From Candidatus Dojkabacteria bacterium (GTDB lineage Bacteria > Patescibacteriota > Dojkabacteria > JAFGLO01): a stretch of DNA of 38,847 nt. Of this stretch, positions 2,526 through 34,380 are shown piece by piece (position 1 is the stretch's first letter; each line of letters opens with the position of its first letter). The notes under the pieces were generated by a model that saw only the letters and a list, made by a program, of their open reading frames with translations, was not told the origin of the DNA and did not search any database. The position numbers and the translations under genes are program-made. The stretch is from positions 1 to 38,847 of the forward strand of contig JAFGLO010000014.1 in assembly GCA_016927995.1 (NCBI GenBank). Reading direction: 5' to 3'.

Positions 2526-4655
2526 ATGACACAAGCGACAGCCTATTTAAATGAAAATTTGTTTGAGACTCTTTTTTGGGTAACAGTTGTACTAATCCCC
2601 CTGTTTCTGACTGTAAACATTATAAAAATATTAATCAACAAGAAAAAATCAAAACAATCACTGGACAGTACAAAACCACATATTCCCGAACAATTATCCG
2701 AGCAGCTTATCGCCGTTACCGATAACAAAGTCCGATTATTTTTCAGAAAAATCGGCCGTTTCATTAAGGTCTTTTTTACGAAAAATCCAAGATTTTGGGC
2801 GAATTTTCTGTTCTTCTTTTTTGACGTTGTTCTCTTTAGTGCAATTATTGGAAATATATATTACATGTTCTTTACGAAACCTGAAATTGCATACTCTATT
2901 CCTGAACTTGAGGAACATTGGATGGATCAAGAAACCCCTGTAGAGATAGTATTTAACGTTCCGGTCAAAGTAGAAGAATTAAAAGAAAACATATCCCCAA
3001 ATGTTGAAGGACGCTGGGAATACGTACAGTGTTTCCCAAATATTCCATTTCTAAACTTAGTTCGAAGAATAAAATTCTATCCTAAGGAAACGATTGCTCC
3101 CGAAACAAGAGTCGTAATATATATAACCGGAATCTCGCGCTTAACAAAACAGGAAAATCATGAATATGCAAGAGATTTTTATGCTGCTTATATGCCCACA
3201 GTTACCTCTACAAGTCCCGAAAACGGATTCGACAAAGTCCGCATAGAGGATTCGATCATTTTTAATATAAACAATTCCAACGAAAAAATCACTGCATGGG
3301 AAATTATCACAAATCCTGCATTTGAATTTACAACAACCACGTCAGAAGGAAGGCTTGTTGTAACTCCGACTCGACCATTTGACCAAGGTACAGAGTACAC
3401 AATCACTCTATACAAAACAATTTATCGTTACAACATTGAAACCGGTGAAGTCGTGGAAACACTTGAAACCAACGAAGAGACAGTACTACAATTTAAAACA
3501 GTTCCGGCACCGGGCCTACTTGATTATTCCCCGAAGGGTGAGAGTTCCAGAGTTGATAGCCCAATTAAAATTCAGTTTGACGGTGACGTAAACAGAAAAG
3601 AAGTTGAGGAACGATTTACCATTGAACCAACCATTGACGGTTCGATATCCTGGGAAGAAAATACCCTTACCTTTATGCCTAATGCACCCTTACCCTACGG
3701 CACCACTTATACAATCCGAATTGCACCCGGATTCCATAACCTAGACGGTGGTGTACGTGACAACGAAATTGTTCTATCTTTCTCAACAGTCGGTGAAATC
3801 AGAATATTGCAAACAACTCCGGTAGCAAATTCGACTGGGGTAAAAGTAGATAACAGAATAATAAGTATTGTATTTAATCAGGAAGTTGATCAGGCCTCTG
3901 CCCAGCAGCACTTTACAATTTCTCCATATATTGCAGGAACCTTTTCGTGGAATGGAAATACCATGAACTATACCACCGGAGCCAATTTTGCCTACAGCAC
4001 AACCTACACGGCCACAGTTTCGGCAGGAGTAAAATCAATTTATGGACTTGATCTTTCTACGCCATATTCCATTAGATTTACAACCGCATCAGATAGAACC
4101 GTAATTACCGGAGTACCCTGGTATAAGCAAACGGAATCATTTACCTGTAATGTGCAAGCTACTAACATGGTACTTGGATACTACGGCGTATATCTTGGAG
4201 AACAAGGGGTTAAAAATGCTTTTGGAATTGGCCAATGGCTAAACGAATCCGAAGGAACGGGAGGAAATCCACATGAAGACTGGATCGAGTTTTTTGGCAT
4301 ATTCTGGGAACCGGCATATGATCTTGTATCCCAGTATCGACCTGCTGAAATAAAGCAGGGCTGGACAGTTCAGGGTCTTACACAAATGATTCAAAATGGT
4401 GATCTGGCAATCATTTGGTGGCACAACGACTGGAGTACCTTTTACTGGAAAACCTGGGTAACACCAGGCGGACAAACAATTACCGGACTTAACGGAACCC
4501 ACTCCGAAGTTGTAATTGGATTTATCGGTCCGGCTGAAAACCCTACCCACATGATTACAAACGATCCATGGCGTGGTGCAGGTCGTATTTACGACATTGC
4601 CACATTTACCAGACTTTGGGCGGTTTATAACAATACCGCGGTAGTAGTATATTAA
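2526..4655 (+). CDS. Membrane protein with tandem Ig-like (Big_5) domains and a C39-like cysteine peptidase domain
   Basis: 709 residues. Two hydrophobic segments (about 16-37 and 91-115) are joined by a basic loop. Four Ig-like modules follow, at about 118-222, 224-327, 328-422 and 423-525. The repeated pattern TSPENG / SPKGES / TTPVANS ... Y-T-I/A-x-V marks the SbsA/Big_5 type. Residues 526-709 match a C39-like family 2 peptidase: PWYKQTESFTCN with Cys541, GTHSEVVIGFIG with His659 and TNDPWRG with Asp680 give a complete Cys-His-Asp set. The likely architecture is a stalk holding a peptidase outside the membrane. Substrate is unknown: a bacteriocin-type leader, cell wall peptides or neighbouring surface proteins are all possible. 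The close spacing to the deacetylase-like gene suggests shared envelope work. Confidence 0.75.
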   Translation: MTQATAYLNENLFETLFWVTVVLIPLFLTVNIIKILINKKKSKQSLDSTKPHIPEQLSEQLIAVTDNKVRLFFRKIGRFIKVFFTKNPRFWANFLFFFFDVVLFSAIIGNIYYMFFTKPEIAYSIPELEEHWMDQETPVEIVFNVPVKVEELKENISPNVEGRWEYVQCFPNIPFLNLVRRIKFYPKETIAPETRVVIYITGISRLTKQENHEYARDFYAAYMPTVTSTSPENGFDKVRIEDSIIFNINNSNEKITAWEIITNPAFEFTTTTSEGRLVVTPTRPFDQGTEYTITLYKTIYRYNIETGEVVETLETNEETVLQFKTVPAPGLLDYSPKGESSRVDSPIKIQFDGDVNRKEVEERFTIEPTIDGSISWEENTLTFMPNAPLPYGTTYTIRIAPGFHNLDGGVRDNEIVLSFSTVGEIRILQTTPVANSTGVKVDNRIISIVFNQEVDQASAQQHFTISPYIAGTFSWNGNTMNYTTGANFAYSTTYTATVSAGVKSIYGLDLSTPYSIRFTTASDRTVITGVPWYKQTESFTCNVQATNMVLGYYGVYLGEQGVKNAFGIGQWLNESEGTGGNPHEDWIEFFGIFWEPAYDLVSQYRPAEIKQGWTVQGLTQMIQNGDLAIIWWHNDWSTFYWKTWVTPGGQTITGLNGTHSEVVIGFIGPAENPTHMITNDPWRGAGRIYDIATFTRLWAVYNNTAVVVY

Positions 4656-5794: not shown

Positions 5795-5817
5795 CGTTAA
5801 GTCTAAGTTTATTAGAC

Positions 5818-6858
5818 ATGAAATTGAGCGATTTCCACGCAATAACGGTAGTCTTAAGTGGACACATTAACAAAAAGCGCTTTCTGAAAACTGTTTCGGA
5901 TAAGGCAAAAAAGCTTAATATTGTCGGATTTGCACAATTTAAACAGGATAACAGTTGCAAGATCCACGCAGAAGGTACAAAAACAGTTCTTTCCGAATTT
6001 CTTGATACATTAAACAGGCAAACAGCAGAGTTTGATCTTAATGAAGTTAATGTTTCATGGATAGACCCTTATAAAATTTATAACGACTTTAGGACGATAG
6101 ATCACCCGACATGGAATCCAACAGTTATATCCCCTTCCCCTACACATAAAACCCAAATTATCGAGCCGGTTAAGTACAAAAAAATCCCAACTCATGTTGC
6201 AATCCTTCCAATCGAGATGATTATGTGGGGAAAAGAGCTTTATAAACCCCTCACTCCATGGTTGCGACGTACCCAAAGAAGTTTTGAAACCATTATCGAG
6301 TTGTCTCAAAAGCTAAAAATCAAGTATTTGACAATATTAGAGATGCACTCATCGGTTTGGAAACTAAAGACAGATCAAATTAGAAGCCAGCTACATCTTA
6401 CGCACAGGTGGATTGAATTTATGCAACCATTCTTTAATACGTTTGGCATTAGACTAAAAGTTATCGGACGTAGAAATCGTCTTCCGACCGAGCTTTCTGC
6501 ACTTATAGCAAAGGTTGAAAAAAACACCCGCAACAATAAAAAACTTACATTTACCCTAGCAATTGACTATTCAGGGAAAAATGAGATTACCGAAGCCGTA
6601 AATGCCATAATTCAGTCTAAAATTCCTTCTGTTGACGAAAATACTCTAGATTCCTTTTTATGGACTCATGAATTACCACCTATTGACCTTGTAATTACAA
6701 ATGGCGGGGTAACAAGCCTACAGGGACACTTTTCCTGCAAAGCAGAAAATGCATCGGTTTACGTAAGCAATAAACTATTTTCCGAACTTAACACAGCTGA
6801 AATACTAAAAGCAATAGAAACATTTAATAATGATCAGAAAATTCTTTTAGGTAAATAG
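5818..6858 (+). CDS. Acylphosphatase-like / cis-prenyltransferase-like fusion, both domains without catalytic residues
   Basis: 346 residues. Residues about 6-90 align with acylphosphatase: LSGHINKKRFL aligns with the phosphate loop V-S-G-R-V-Q-G-V-G-F-R, placing Leu23 at the catalytic Arg, and GFAQF places Phe41 at the catalytic Asn. Residues about 120-345 align along their whole length with undecaprenyl diphosphate synthase: HVAILPIEMIMWGK against HVAIIMDGNGRWAK, then SSVWK, IRLKVIG, LAIDYSGKNEI and HELPPIDLVITNGG. The catalytic Asp is Ile132, the Gly-x-Arg arginine is Met136, and the R-T-G-G-E segment reads TNGGV (Thr294, Val298). The frame is intact, so this looks like a maintained pseudoenzyme and not a decaying gene. 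By analogy with the inactive NgBR/Nus1 subunit it might bind polyprenyl lipids or a partner synthase. It converges on rho with a 2-nt gap. Confidence 0.72.
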   Translation: MKLSDFHAITVVLSGHINKKRFLKTVSDKAKKLNIVGFAQFKQDNSCKIHAEGTKTVLSEFLDTLNRQTAEFDLNEVNVSWIDPYKIYNDFRTIDHPTWNPTVISPSPTHKTQIIEPVKYKKIPTHVAILPIEMIMWGKELYKPLTPWLRRTQRSFETIIELSQKLKIKYLTILEMHSSVWKLKTDQIRSQLHLTHRWIEFMQPFFNTFGIRLKVIGRRNRLPTELSALIAKVEKNTRNNKKLTFTLAIDYSGKNEITEAVNAIIQSKIPSVDENTLDSFLWTHELPPIDLVITNGGVTSLQGHFSCKAENASVYVSNKLFSELNTAEILKAIETFNNDQKILLGK

Positions 6859-14897: not shown

Positions 14898-16076
14898 TCA
14901 AAGGTCCACCTCTTTAAATAAATCTAAGTATTCCAGAGAATTATATCGTTCAGAGATAACTTTCCCTTCTGTTTTATATGAATTTAGCATTAATCTCACT
15001 TGATTAATTATTTTATGTTGATCAAGATCGGTAACATCCGTAAAATATCTTTCTTGTGAAAAATGCATCATCAGTTCGTTATATTTGTCTGCCCATCCTA
15101 TACATACAACAGGTACACCCCTTTTGAAGGCATGAATAACCGAGTGATAACGCGAAGCTACAAGAAAGTTAAACATGGATATGATTTGTTCTAACTCTAT
15201 GCAGGTTAAATCCTCTCCAATCAAACTTACGTTATCTTTTGTTTCAAACATTCGCTTTATTATGTTACATATACGTAAATCCTCAACAGAGTGTCTTAGA
15301 ATATAAACAGTTTTTCCTTCACTTAAACATGTTTGAATAATGGATCCATACAAATCTAAGAAGGTGCGCTCCTTTAATCGATTATAAATTTTCTGATTTG
15401 GAACAATTCCAACTGAATCTTTAACAATCCTATATCTACGAAAAGGTGGAGGAACCTTAAATATATTTTCAAGAGAATATTCTCCGTTCCCTAAAACTAA
15501 ATCATTCGTTAAAATCACGTTTTGTCCTGTGAAATTGCTGAGTGCTTGCAGTCCGGATCTCTCCCTAACATATATTTTGGTCGGATATCTAAGATACTTC
15601 TTAAGTAAAGGGTTTATTATCAACGAGTAAGGAAAGATATAATCCAGCGGTCCTATTGACTGTGGAAAAATGAAATACGGAATATTATATTTCTGGGCAA
15701 TAATTATAGAGCTTAAGTAACGTAGGGAGTGAGTAAAATTTTTCCAATGACTTGAAAAAAAAACAGAGGATAGTGCATATCCACTTATATCAATGATTGC
15801 TTTTGTAGTTTTTAATATCTCAGTTATCCTTGTACTTTTCTCCCCTTTCAAAATCGGAAAAAGTAAACCTAGTTGAATATTTTTTGACCACGGTATAATC
15901 TCAAACTTGTATTTGAACTTTGAAGAACTTTTAACTTTATAGTCTTGTTCAGAAAAAAGGTATATCCTAGCCTTGGGGGATATAGCTTTTATTTGGTCAA
16001 CAACCGTGAATGCCATTGCCTGAGCGCCTTTATTCAACAAGTTTCCACCAACAATGACAACGTTTGGCGTTAACAT
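14898..16076 (-). CDS. Polysaccharide pyruvyl transferase family protein
   Basis: 392 residues. VVIVGGNLLNKGAQAMAFTV is the N-terminal loop of the family (CsaB/WcaK type). The C-terminal half has VASRYHSVIHAFKRGVPVV and IGWADKYNELM, the conserved R-x-H-S segment. Members add ketal pyruvate from phosphoenolpyruvate to sugars, or act as related transferases. It overlaps the FrhB-like gene by 7 nt. Such FrhB-like and pyruvyltransferase-family genes are repeatedly found side by side in polysaccharide loci, so they probably act in one modification step. Confidence 0.82.
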   Translation of the reverse strand: MLTPNVVIVGGNLLNKGAQAMAFTVVDQIKAISPKARIYLFSEQDYKVKSSSKFKYKFEIIPWSKNIQLGLLFPILKGEKSTRITEILKTTKAIIDISGYALSSVFFSSHWKNFTHSLRYLSSIIIAQKYNIPYFIFPQSIGPLDYIFPYSLIINPLLKKYLRYPTKIYVRERSGLQALSNFTGQNVILTNDLVLGNGEYSLENIFKVPPPFRRYRIVKDSVGIVPNQKIYNRLKERTFLDLYGSIIQTCLSEGKTVYILRHSVEDLRICNIIKRMFETKDNVSLIGEDLTCIELEQIISMFNFLVASRYHSVIHAFKRGVPVVCIGWADKYNELMMHFSQERYFTDVTDLDQHKIINQVRLMLNSYKTEGKVISERYNSLEYLDLFKEVDL

Positions 16077-17461
16077 ATTTCAACTATTTTCAGCTTATCT
16101 GAAGAACCATAAATTCTTGGAATTGTTAACCTTTCTCTAATCTCTGCAACTAATTTAAGTGCGCCGTGCGGTAATAACTTAAGAATCAATCTAAACCAAG
16201 AATGCTTTATTAGACGATAACACAACCAATAATGTGCATATGAAAAAATGGTGTAATTCTTTTGTAGCACCACTAGAACTTTATTGGACACCACATCATC
16301 AATCTCAAATTTAACTCCATAATCTGGAGCTTTCCTTCCGATTAACCGAGCAAAGTCACCAGCATAGCTTATTCCCAACTTTTTTTCCGCAACTTTCGTT
16401 GATTTTGCGATGTCTTTCAGTTCCATCTTTTTTAAAGTTAGAATTTTTGAATCCGAAAGCAGATTAACGAATTTATCACCCCTCGGGGTTTTAGTAATTA
16501 TATCTGACTTCCCCATACTTTTATAATAAACATCCCTTATATCAGATCTACAATATGCAGATGCAATTCTACAGTCACCACAAGATACGTCTGAAAACTC
16601 ATTTAGTTTATCAAAACATAACTGACATCTCCAATTAGTAAAAAAGCTTCTTGCGTTTAATTTGCTATAAGACGCCAAAAGATTAATCTCTTCACCTGAG
16701 TTTGTTTCTAACAACATGTCGCAAGGCCAGCCTCGAAATTTCTTTGACCTAAATTGAAAGGATTTTATCTCCGAACGTTTTTTATTGATCTTTGATAATA
16801 TCTGATCTTGATAATGATAATTAAACACCCCTAAGCAATGAAGTCCAATATACAAGGAAATTCTCTTAGCCAACTTAGGGAATACTTGTTCAGCTTTTCT
16901 CATCCCCTGTATCTGGCATGGAGTTCCAACAAATGCAAACCGACCGGATTTCATATTTTTTATTTCTCTAACTATACTTGCCACAGGAACGGGATGATAC
17001 TTAGACCCAACTGCTTGTAAAACTTCCTCACGGTTCCTAGCAATATACACAACCGGTGTAAACGGTGACGTTTCACTCCATTTGGTAACAACAACACCGT
17101 CAAACAGATTATTCTCAAGACCATATATTAGTGAAGCCGAAACAAATCCTCCACTTTGAGCTACATTAAGAATTTTTGAATCGTTAACGTATCCAGCATA
17201 TGCATTAATAACTCTTCCTGTTGCCATATTACCCGGCATACGTCCGTGAATTGTTTGCGACAATGCCTTATAGTCAAATCCTAGACCCGGGCACACTTTT
17301 TCACAAAGCCCACACAAGGCACACTTTCTTATATCAACGGTTGGTGTGCATATTCCATATTTGTCTATTGAAATTTTTATGGCATTCTGGGGACATATGC
17401 CCTCACAGACCCCACATCCTGTACAGAGTCCATCTTGTACCACCCACGATATGTTATTCAT
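16070..17461 (-). CDS. FrhB-like iron-sulfur flavoprotein (coenzyme F420 hydrogenase beta-subunit family)
   Basis: 463 residues. The N-terminus carries two 4Fe-4S ferredoxin motifs: CTGCGVCEGICP and CALCGLCEKVCP. It is followed by the FrhB N-terminal domain (AQSGGFVSASLIYGLENN, VGTPCQIQGMRK) and the C-terminal FrhB domain with further cysteines (WRCQLCFDK, DVSCGDCR). The family oxidises or reduces a substrate using FAD and iron-sulfur clusters. In polysaccharide clusters it is thought to work on a sugar, not on F420. The ATG overlaps the TGA of the flippase gene (ATGA), so translation is coupled. Confidence 0.88.
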   Translation of the reverse strand: MNNISWVVQDGLCTGCGVCEGICPQNAIKISIDKYGICTPTVDIRKCALCGLCEKVCPGLGFDYKALSQTIHGRMPGNMATGRVINAYAGYVNDSKILNVAQSGGFVSASLIYGLENNLFDGVVVTKWSETSPFTPVVYIARNREEVLQAVGSKYHPVPVASIVREIKNMKSGRFAFVGTPCQIQGMRKAEQVFPKLAKRISLYIGLHCLGVFNYHYQDQILSKINKKRSEIKSFQFRSKKFRGWPCDMLLETNSGEEINLLASYSKLNARSFFTNWRCQLCFDKLNEFSDVSCGDCRIASAYCRSDIRDVYYKSMGKSDIITKTPRGDKFVNLLSDSKILTLKKMELKDIAKSTKVAEKKLGISYAGDFARLIGRKAPDYGVKFEIDDVVSNKVLVVLQKNYTIFSYAHYWLCYRLIKHSWFRLILKLLPHGALKLVAEIRERLTIPRIYGSSDKLKIVEIC

Positions 17462-18936
17462 TTTTTTAAAATCTCTTCCATAAATTTTATATTTTTTTTG
17501 TCATACACAAAAAACAAATATAAATACGTCAAGATGAATACTACTATGGCGATTAATTGATCAATATCTGTCCCTAAATATCCCAACACCAGGTAAAAAC
17601 ACGAGTATATAAGCATACTAATTAAAATATTTGTTAATGGTATTTTTATCGCTTGAAAATACTGTAAGAAGGTAATTTTGATAACCTTACTCACGGCACG
17701 TTGTAATAAAATATGCTTAGTCAGAACTGACATGAGTAATACTATAACAACAACATTAATAGAAAACAAAGCGGCAATTGACAAAATCCCTAACCTTAGT
17801 AATGTAATAACAATTTCTATGTTAAATACCGTTTGAGTTTTTTCATATACAAACAAGGTTGGAGCCGTAAACCCGTTTGACATAAGCTGTAGCATTCCTA
17901 TCAAACAAAATATCTGCACAGGAAAAACAGCCTCACTCCACCCATCCCCCCAGATAAGAGGAACAAGCGTTGGAGTCAATAACAAACCGACAGGGAAAAT
18001 TACTGCCACTGCTGCAACAAAGTGAGTTAGTCTAAGATAAATTTCTGCAAACTTCTGGGTACTGGGTTTCACCTTAGAAAACAAAGGAAAAGTTACTTTA
18101 CTGAAGCCCGAATTTAAAAACGTAACAATCTTTCCTATTAAATTTTTGGCAAAATAGTAGACACCCAATGCCTGAATTCCCAAAAGCTTTCCAATTATTA
18201 TTTCGTCAAAATGAAATCCTATATAATTTAAGAATGTTCTTGCCGTCACAAAAAAACCAAACGAATAATGAGCCTTTACCTCTTCAAACCGAAAATGAAA
18301 TCTGGGTAACCACAATTTATTCTTAACGAAATATATAGTAAACAAAGAGGCATCGACAACGGCACCAAACAAAACGCCAAATAGATAGCTATGAATCCCT
18401 AAACCTGATAAAAGACAAATTACTGTAACAACAAAAATGAAAATACTCTTAACCATACCTATTTTCTCAATCACAGGAAAGTTGATGTCTTTCTGTAAAA
18501 CAGCCTCAAATATTAAATCCAGTGGCTCAATTATAAAAATGAACGAAAGAACTTTAATATATGTAGAAAGCTCCGGTTCTTTATAGAAGGAAGCAATTAT
18601 TCCACTAAACAAAAAAACTCCTAAAAAGACAGCAATCCCTATTGCTTGGTTAATCCAGAATATACTTGATAATTCATTGTCTGTTGTTTTTTTTCTACTG
18701 ATAATGGATTGTGCTATCCCAAACTCAACTAGTGTCTCGGACAATCCATAAACAACTGCAAGTATGCCTACTAATCCCATTTGCTCGGGTCCAAGTACAA
18801 GCGTAAGCATCGAGATAGTGGCAAAACCTACTCCTCCCTTGACAATACTGCTAATTGCGGCCCATTTGAATCTTTTTTTTGACTTTGTATAAAGCTCGTT
18901 AAATTCCATTGAAACGGTTTTAGGCTTCATTAGCAT
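17458..18936 (-). CDS. Wzx-like flippase / polysaccharide exporter (MOP superfamily), set B
   Basis: 492 residues, about 12-14 membrane helices. The N-terminal region AAISSIVKGGVGFATISMLTLVLGPEQMGLVG and the EFGIAQSIISRK loop match WzxC/TuaB-type transporters, which turn lipid-linked repeat units to the outer face of the membrane. An internal Met at residue 10 (MEFNELYTK) is an equally good start. The first codons overlap the end of the upstream glycosyltransferase gene by 17 nt. A second, less similar flippase-like gene lies at 28885-30177. Confidence 0.88.
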   Translation of the reverse strand: MLMKPKTVSMEFNELYTKSKKRFKWAAISSIVKGGVGFATISMLTLVLGPEQMGLVGILAVVYGLSETLVEFGIAQSIISRKKTTDNELSSIFWINQAIGIAVFLGVFLFSGIIASFYKEPELSTYIKVLSFIFIIEPLDLIFEAVLQKDINFPVIEKIGMVKSIFIFVVTVICLLSGLGIHSYLFGVLFGAVVDASLFTIYFVKNKLWLPRFHFRFEEVKAHYSFGFFVTARTFLNYIGFHFDEIIIGKLLGIQALGVYYFAKNLIGKIVTFLNSGFSKVTFPLFSKVKPSTQKFAEIYLRLTHFVAAVAVIFPVGLLLTPTLVPLIWGDGWSEAVFPVQIFCLIGMLQLMSNGFTAPTLFVYEKTQTVFNIEIVITLLRLGILSIAALFSINVVVIVLLMSVLTKHILLQRAVSKVIKITFLQYFQAIKIPLTNILISMLIYSCFYLVLGYLGTDIDQLIAIVVFILTYLYLFFVYDKKNIKFMEEILKK

Positions 18937-32896: not shown

Positions 32897-34372
32897 CTAA
32901 TACGCTCCCGTCCTTTTCCCGAATATCATGTCAATTACAACTCCGGCTGTTTTAAAAAAGATTACTACATCAAGCCATACTGACCAGTTTCGAATATACC
33001 AGGCATCAAGCTCAAGCCGTTTTACAAACCCCACATCGTTTCGACCACTAACCTGCCAAAGACCTGTCATTCCGGGTTTAACCGACAATATAACATTAAA
33101 ATAATCACCAATATCCTCTCGCTCTCTTGGCAAGTACGGACGCGGTCCTACAAGGCTCATCTGTCCAAGCATTACGTTAAATATCTGAGGAATTTCATCG
33201 AGACTTGTTTTTCTAAGCAATTTTCCGAGTTTCGTAACTCGTGGATCGTCATCATCCCTGATTTTTTTGAAAACTTCCCAATCTCTTTTGGCTTTAGGAT
33301 TTTTTGCGAAGTAATTGGCTAACACCTTTTGCTCATATTCCTTATCCTCGGAAACTCGACGCTGCATCGTCTGAAACTTAAACGGTTTAAACTCTTTACC
33401 CCCTTTACCATATCTTGTCATCATGAAAAAGGGTTTATTCCCATCGATTATAATAATAAGCAGAGATATAAAAATAATAACCGGTAATCCGATAACAAGC
33501 GCAATAAGCCCGACAAAAGTATCAAAAACGGTCTTTACAATTCTATTCTCAAAGGACTTAAGTGTGTTTGGCATTTCAAGAACAAATAACCGTTCATTAA
33601 AAAGGTGAAAAGCGCTCGATCCCATTAAGGATAAGTCGCCGTTATACGGAACCCAGAGTACCTTATCTACATATCTGTAAGCTTCGTTTATAAGTGCATT
33701 GATGCTTCCTTTATCCCCACGTTTAACCAAGCAAATAATCGTCTGAACATTTCCGGGCTTAAGCGTTTTTACAAGATCCTTTTGTGAACCGATGTTAGTA
33801 TATTTCGAAGATTTAGACGGTGTATCCGATATTATTCCGATTATGTGATATCCCAAATAGTAATCAGCAGTTATGCCATCGAGATCCGTGTCGGATAGTT
33901 CACAGTCTGTTAAGACCACAGCCGTTTGACCCCAAATTCCCAATCGATATAAAACAACTTTTACTAAAAATCTAATAATAGGGAAAATAAAGATCGCGAG
34001 TCCAACCTGAAAAAGTACAACAATTCGAGAAATGTCATACGGAACACGCATAAATCCCACAACCGAGAAGCTTATTACCCCGGCTATTACTATTGACCTC
34101 ACATACATTTCGGCTTCATACCAGAAGGGTTTTCGTCTTGTATATAGGTCGTGGATCATAAATACTGCAACAAATAAAAGTGGAAAAATCCAATATTCTG
34201 TAAATTGGCTAAATCTAAAGAGTGTGTTTAGCTCCATAAATTCGATATTTTCAACAGCAAAGTTTCGCAACTTTACGGAAAGATAAAGGGTAAGATAGTA
34301 AGCAAATATATCGGCACAAAGTAGTGTGAATAGCGAAAACAATTTTTTAAATTTGGTTATTAGCCTGCTCAT
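32897..34372 (-). CDS. Undecaprenyl-phosphate sugar phosphotransferase (WbaP/WcaJ type)
   Basis: About 491 residues. Four N-terminal helices (about 10-120) are followed by a Rossmann-like cytosolic domain (about 135-260), a further helix near 275-305 (VIGLPVIIFISLLIIII) and the catalytic bacterial sugar transferase domain. Marks: KPFKFQTM, RDDDDPRVTKLGKLLRKTSLDEIPQ in two parts, MSLVGPRP and KPGMTGLWQVSGRND. It moves a sugar-1-phosphate to undecaprenyl phosphate, the first committed step. I start at the ATG at 34372: TATAAT lies 8 nt before it, whereas the ATG at 34378 is only 2 nt from that -10 box. Probable first gene of the cluster. Confidence 0.92.
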   Translation of the reverse strand: MSRLITKFKKLFSLFTLLCADIFAYYLTLYLSVKLRNFAVENIEFMELNTLFRFSQFTEYWIFPLLFVAVFMIHDLYTRRKPFWYEAEMYVRSIVIAGVISFSVVGFMRVPYDISRIVVLFQVGLAIFIFPIIRFLVKVVLYRLGIWGQTAVVLTDCELSDTDLDGITADYYLGYHIIGIISDTPSKSSKYTNIGSQKDLVKTLKPGNVQTIICLVKRGDKGSINALINEAYRYVDKVLWVPYNGDLSLMGSSAFHLFNERLFVLEMPNTLKSFENRIVKTVFDTFVGLIALVIGLPVIIFISLLIIIIDGNKPFFMMTRYGKGGKEFKPFKFQTMQRRVSEDKEYEQKVLANYFAKNPKAKRDWEVFKKIRDDDDPRVTKLGKLLRKTSLDEIPQIFNVMLGQMSLVGPRPYLPREREDIGDYFNVILSVKPGMTGLWQVSGRNDVGFVKRLELDAWYIRNWSVWLDVVIFFKTAGVVIDMIFGKRTGAY

Positions 34373-34380
34373 TGTCATGG

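Follow-up and report, generated by a model that had tools for sequence, protein, structure and literature searches.

A degenerate acylphosphatase-cis-prenyltransferase fusion, probably a pseudoenzyme, encoded by a Dojkabacteria genome

Inactive proteins with the cis-prenyltransferase fold are known from eukaryotes. NgBR (human NUS1) and yeast Nus1 are inactive subunits that pair with an active subunit, and yeast Nus1 does not have the canonical C-terminal RxG motif (PMC7573591). Literature searches found nothing direct on inactive bacterial cis-prenyltransferases, nor on a fusion of acylphosphatase with undecaprenyl diphosphate synthase (UppS). The window analyzed here (the whole stretch of 38,847 nucleotides, contig JAFGLO010000014.1 of a Candidatus Dojkabacteria bacterium) encodes a protein that joins both types of domain. 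It has the fold of bacterial UppS (PF01255; e.g. 6szg, 1jp3) and partly retains the structural motifs GRxxRLP and DYxGxxEI, but the catalytic Asp, Asn and His, the phosphate-binding Arg residues and the Glu are all missing. Similarly, it shares the acylphosphatase fold (PF00708) above the Pfam cut-off but not the catalytic Arg and Asn. NgBR and Nus1 resemble it in being inactive members of the cis-prenyltransferase fold; they are eukaryotic and partnered, whereas this protein is bacterial, is fused to an acylphosphatase-like domain and has no partner that we could find. The features of the protein are as follows.

5818-6858, + strand: the complete ORF (346 aa and a stop codon), a degenerate acylphosphatase-cis-prenyltransferase fusion
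5845-6093, + strand: acylphosphatase-like domain, residues 10-92 (PF00708 and alignment with relatives)
6094-6186, + strand: linker, about residues 93-123, modelled at low confidence
6187-6840, + strand: cis-prenyltransferase domain, about residues 124-341; fold kept, catalytic residues gone (PF01255 and Foldseek)
6208-6228, + strand: former catalytic motif 1, where PDGNRRW has become PIEMIMW (residues 131-137; alignment)
6343-6366, + strand: former FSTENW-R motif, now MHSSVWKL (residues 176-183; alignment)
6694-6723, + strand: former IRTSGExRxS motif, now ITNGGVTSLQ (residues 293-302; alignment)

The ORF starts with ATG and stays open for 346 codons with no stop or frameshift. Its product matches PF00708 (residues 10-92; 36.2 bits, gathering cut-off 22.5) and PF01255 (residues 152-341; 105.3 bits, gathering cut-off 27). 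An NCBIfam search returned many UppS and acylphosphatase models, each under its cut-off, and active cis-prenyltransferases head the sequence matches to solved structures. The predicted structure has a mean pLDDT of 83.7, and Foldseek matched it to UppS across the whole domain (E-values down to 1.5e-19; TM-scores of about 0.8-0.86 by target length). Residues 131-150, which include former motif 1, are modelled with a pLDDT of about 58-62, where an intact relative reaches about 93. The linker does not have the helix that is predicted for an intact relative. Directly 5' of the ATG lies a 6-bp inverted repeat (GTCTAA-gttta-TTAGAC, 5799-5815) that may be due to chance.

The protein was aligned with 24 full-length fusion relatives and numbered from an E. 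coli UppS fragment, checked as identical to PDB 1jp3. Of the 87 columns that reach 85% conservation among the intact fusions, the protein keeps 33. None of the 13 catalytic positions (which we take to be those established by work on UppS and acylphosphatase) is among them, whereas 33 of the other 74 are kept (Fisher p = 0.0014). Within the cis-prenyltransferase half, the corresponding counts are 0/11 and 28/58 (p = 0.002). The changes in E. coli numbering include F70M, S71H, N74V, R77L, R194T, E198V, R200S, S202Q and E213S, eight of which (at S71, N74, R77, R194, E198, R200, S202 and E213) affect residues that are invariant in 24/24 intact fusions. The GH pair of UppS reads RR, and the C-terminal RxRRFGG is lost, the tail being NDQKILLGK. 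The residues required of a UppS enzyme (D26, H43, R77, R194, R200 and E213) have thus been replaced. In the acylphosphatase half, the required Arg and Asn have become L23 and F41. Judged by these residues, the protein is very probably a pseudoenzyme. An earlier note on this DNA had described two degenerate enzyme domains in one frame, and this description holds, as both halves pass the Pfam cut-offs with their catalytic residues replaced; the profile searches and single-protein structure prediction that it proposed gave the scores and the confident UppS-like fold reported above. Its residue calls (L23, F41, I132, M136 and TNGGV at 294-298) are exact, but its list of losses was incomplete, with further UppS positions and the tail also replaced.

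The same note suggested that the fusion itself would be new, which is not supported: versions with essentially intact UppS motifs are encoded by Dojkabacteria, by a few further CPR bacteria and by DPANN archaea. The fusion was found in 10 of the 86 genomes of the Dojkabacteria/WS6 class (the present genome and G003, G005, G007, G008, G009, G010, G026, G044 and G045; the G008 copy is interrupted by a contig end). Beyond the class, it occurs in a small number of other CPR bacteria and in DPANN archaea, chiefly Pacearchaeota. The collected loci (L051-L075) come from Dojkabacteria, a few other CPR bacteria, Pacearchaeota and Woesearchaeota. A search on the linker region, covering one genome per species, detected it in Pacearchaeota, a Woesearchaeota genome and further archaeal genomes, as well as in a Magasanikbacteria genome and two more bacterial genomes. 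Because the search pattern contained [DN]GN, it was blind to other copies without that motif. The UppS motifs are largely intact in 24/24 full-length relatives, most of which retain the acylphosphatase Arg and Asn as well. Intact fusions are at least 35% identical to one another across bacteria and archaea (about 40-50% between these two domains of life). Their gene neighbours vary by lineage; three archaeal loci have a DHH phosphoesterase upstream.

These intact fusions share with the protein their domain order, linker position, full-length collinear alignment and length (open frames of 341-392 aa). Unlike it, they have kept the UppS motifs and in most cases also Arg and Asn of the acylphosphatase half; it has kept none of these. 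As it has the architecture of this lineage (N-terminal PF00708, linker and C-terminal PF01255, collinear throughout), it is classified here, from sequence, among the CPR/DPANN acylphosphatase-UppS fusions, of which it would be a degenerate member. Partial erosion is seen in two other genomes (the L056/L060 set): the G009 fusion has NGNRTW for DGNRRW (D26 to N) and has lost the GH pair, which is also lost in G010. These changes are possibly intermediate steps or signs of altered chemistry. The occurrence of one fusion in both CPR bacteria and DPANN archaea suggests gene exchange between two groups of very small-celled, largely host-dependent organisms, and also suggests a functional link between the acylphosphatase and UppS domains.

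The protein is only 19-26% identical to the intact fusions, and its tree branch is 5.4 changes per site long (median 0.49). With a branch of this length, the tree gave it no supported placement relative to the fusion group; it is best described as a divergent, long-branch descendant of an intact fusion. Rho of the same genome is 55-69% identical to full-length homologues of the class, compared to the 19-26% above, and judged by these identities the genome as a whole does not appear aberrant in rate. A rho tree was also tried as a rate control and dropped because the sampled rhos are near-copies; the raw identities were used instead. By rho, the nearest families have unfused cis-prenyltransferases where they have any, and no neighbour of the ORF, rho included, lies near a fusion in other genomes. 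The earlier note had proposed a survey of related genomes for the same fusion and the same substitutions. The fusion recurs, as described above, but the substitutions do not: with the protein as query, which avoids the motif bias of the linker search, no similar degenerate copy was found in 380 Patescibacteria genomes. An exact-peptide search of genome and viral contigs found no close relative, a viral structure search gave nothing convincing, and searches at the family and order levels contained this genome alone.

The genome is 849 kb in size and 97.5% complete, and its source, a tiny bacterium, is probably host-dependent. Profile searches for named families identified two PF00953 (MraY/WecA-type) enzymes and one DedA-family protein. 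The contig carries a polysaccharide locus with Wzy_C-containing ORFs and Wzz, and encodes the following on its minus strand.

17458-18936, - strand: Wzx-type flippase of the polysaccharide locus (PF13440/PF01943, profile match)
32897-34378, - strand: PF02397 match, an initiating sugar transferase presumed to act on polyprenyl phosphate

From these genes, the bacterium evidently uses a carrier lipid. The same kind of search found no second PF01255 protein (the assembly may lack 2.5% of the genome), no second PF00708 protein, no PF00348 trans-prenyl synthase and no IspH (the mevalonate route being outside its scope). The "true UppS" that had been presumed for this genome was thus not found, its sole PF01255 match being the ORF at 5818-6858. 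As enzymes that use the lipid are present and no complete route for its synthesis was found, the carrier lipid is probably scavenged from other cells. The ORF is tied to the carrier-lipid genes only by sharing a contig with the polysaccharide locus. Elsewhere in that locus, a polysaccharide pyruvyl transferase adjoins an FrhB/FdhB-like iron-sulphur protein (14898-17461). A further protein of the window, encoded at 2526-4655, looks membrane-anchored; it carries repeated Big_5 (bacterial Ig-like) domains and, at its C-terminus, a C39-like peptidase domain.

The explanation that we propose starts from an active acylphosphatase-UppS fusion of the kind that Dojkabacteria and a few other CPR bacteria share with DPANN archaea. 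The lineage would have lost isoprenoid chain synthesis and would now take undecaprenyl phosphate from other cells. Once the substrate supply had gone, both active sites would have been freed from selection and the fold retained. The protein may still bind polyprenyl (di)phosphate or the membrane via the former product tunnel, which is still largely hydrophobic, and could hold, shuttle or present the scavenged lipid to MraY/WecA/WbaP-type enzymes. Alternatively, it could act as a scaffold for these enzymes. Taken as a whole, this explanation is tentative and has somewhat less than an even chance of being right. Loss of the trans-prenyl synthase as the only cause of the dead active site was considered and rejected, as G044 and G045 have no PF00348 protein and keep intact fusions.

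Carrier handling is favoured because 12 of 15 positions taken to line the tunnel are still hydrophobic and the genome still uses the lipid. Four changes (A69E, L85Q, F89T and A92W) would make the tunnel narrower or more polar. As tunnel positions double as fold core, and given these four changes, lipid handling is a lead only, and a specific carrier-handling role is rather doubtful. That a host-dependent bacterium has converted its carrier-lipid synthase into a dedicated undecaprenyl phosphate binding or handling protein is a little more doubtful still. If true, a bacterial pseudo-UppS with a non-catalytic role would offer a molecular handle on the acquisition of carrier lipid by CPR bacteria. 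A synthase that stays folded but dead once its pathway is lost is a candidate, open to testing, for a part in this acquisition.

A gene with a very long branch and both active sites lost might simply be decaying, its frame open by chance. Neutral drift was simulated from three intact fusion genes and scored on a fusion profile, on which the protein reaches 179 bits; drift to the same identity gave means of 18-25 bits and at most about 68. As identity to the true ancestor is not known, a second simulation asked how much drift would bring the score of an intact gene to about 179 bits. This takes 0.3-0.4 neutral substitutions per site, at which 13-16 stops are expected. At 0.2 substitutions per site or more, none of 300 simulated frames stayed open, and at 0.1 only 0-0.3% did. 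A pseudogene would be expected to show stops, frameshifts or neutral change; the ORF shows none of these, and it preferentially keeps conserved non-catalytic sites. Because 13-16 stops are expected and none is present, and because the predicted fold is confident, neutral decay is unlikely; chance survival of an open frame in a decaying gene is quite improbable. The earlier claim of selection on a folded, non-catalytic protein is thus borne out by the drift simulations, the open frame and the confident fold.

Selection could also have rebuilt the scaffold around a different active site, for another reaction on a prenyl or unrelated substrate. Fast change with the fold kept, as seen in the branch length, fits neofunctionalisation, and polar residues (H177, S178, S179, K182 and Q302) occupy the former site. 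However, there is only one sequence from which to judge conservation of a new residue set, and the motif-1 region is modelled at low confidence; such an enzyme is unlikely, if less so than decay. Continued cis-prenyltransferase activity, with catalytic residues supplied from other positions, has in its favour that the genome needs carrier lipid and offers no other candidate, but it is scarcely credible given that all 11 catalytic positions, with the Asp and arginines R77, R194 and R200 among them, are changed and no allylic primer synthase was found in the genome. The earlier note had likened the protein to NgBR and Nus1, and eukaryotic inactive subunits of this fold do activate a separate catalytic cis-prenyltransferase (PMC7573591). 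Here, such a complex would have no catalytic partner, as the 97.5% complete genome yielded no second PF01255 protein, nor a trans-prenyl synthase to supply the partner's primer. The tail arginine of the RxG motif is lost, which is a weak test as yeast Nus1 also departs from the canonical motif, and neither the sequence matches nor the 50 best fold matches included an NgBR or Nus1 chain. With no partner found, the protein is not grouped with NgBR/Nus1, and a role of that kind is very unlikely.

A non-catalytic protein in a cell that scavenges its carrier lipid, the explanation preferred here, can be set beside the wider class. PF01255 matches occur in 38 of the 86 class genomes; the one in G064 is spurious (inside a helicase-like protein), so that 37 genomes have a credible cis-prenyltransferase homologue and 49 do not. 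A trans-prenyl synthase (PF00348) is encoded by 27/86 and a PF00953 MraY/WecA-type enzyme by 86/86. The cis and trans synthases co-occur (22 genomes with both, 15 with cis only, 5 with trans only and 44 with neither; p = 1.3e-6). As MraY/WecA-type enzymes are found in all of these genomes and each type of prenyl synthase in fewer than half, many of the cells must rely on others for carrier lipid or for its precursors, which suggests that scavenging is widespread in the class. We know of no means by which such cells acquire carrier lipid, and a literature search on carrier-lipid scavenging in CPR bacteria found nothing direct. A second degenerate cis-prenyltransferase, this one unfused, is encoded by G048 of the same class (L034; minus-strand ORF of about 256 aa), a genome without PF00348. 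DGNRRY is retained in this protein, but MIITCGQIDYEG stands at the place of IIRTSGExR, and its gene adjoins that of a PAP2-type phosphatase.
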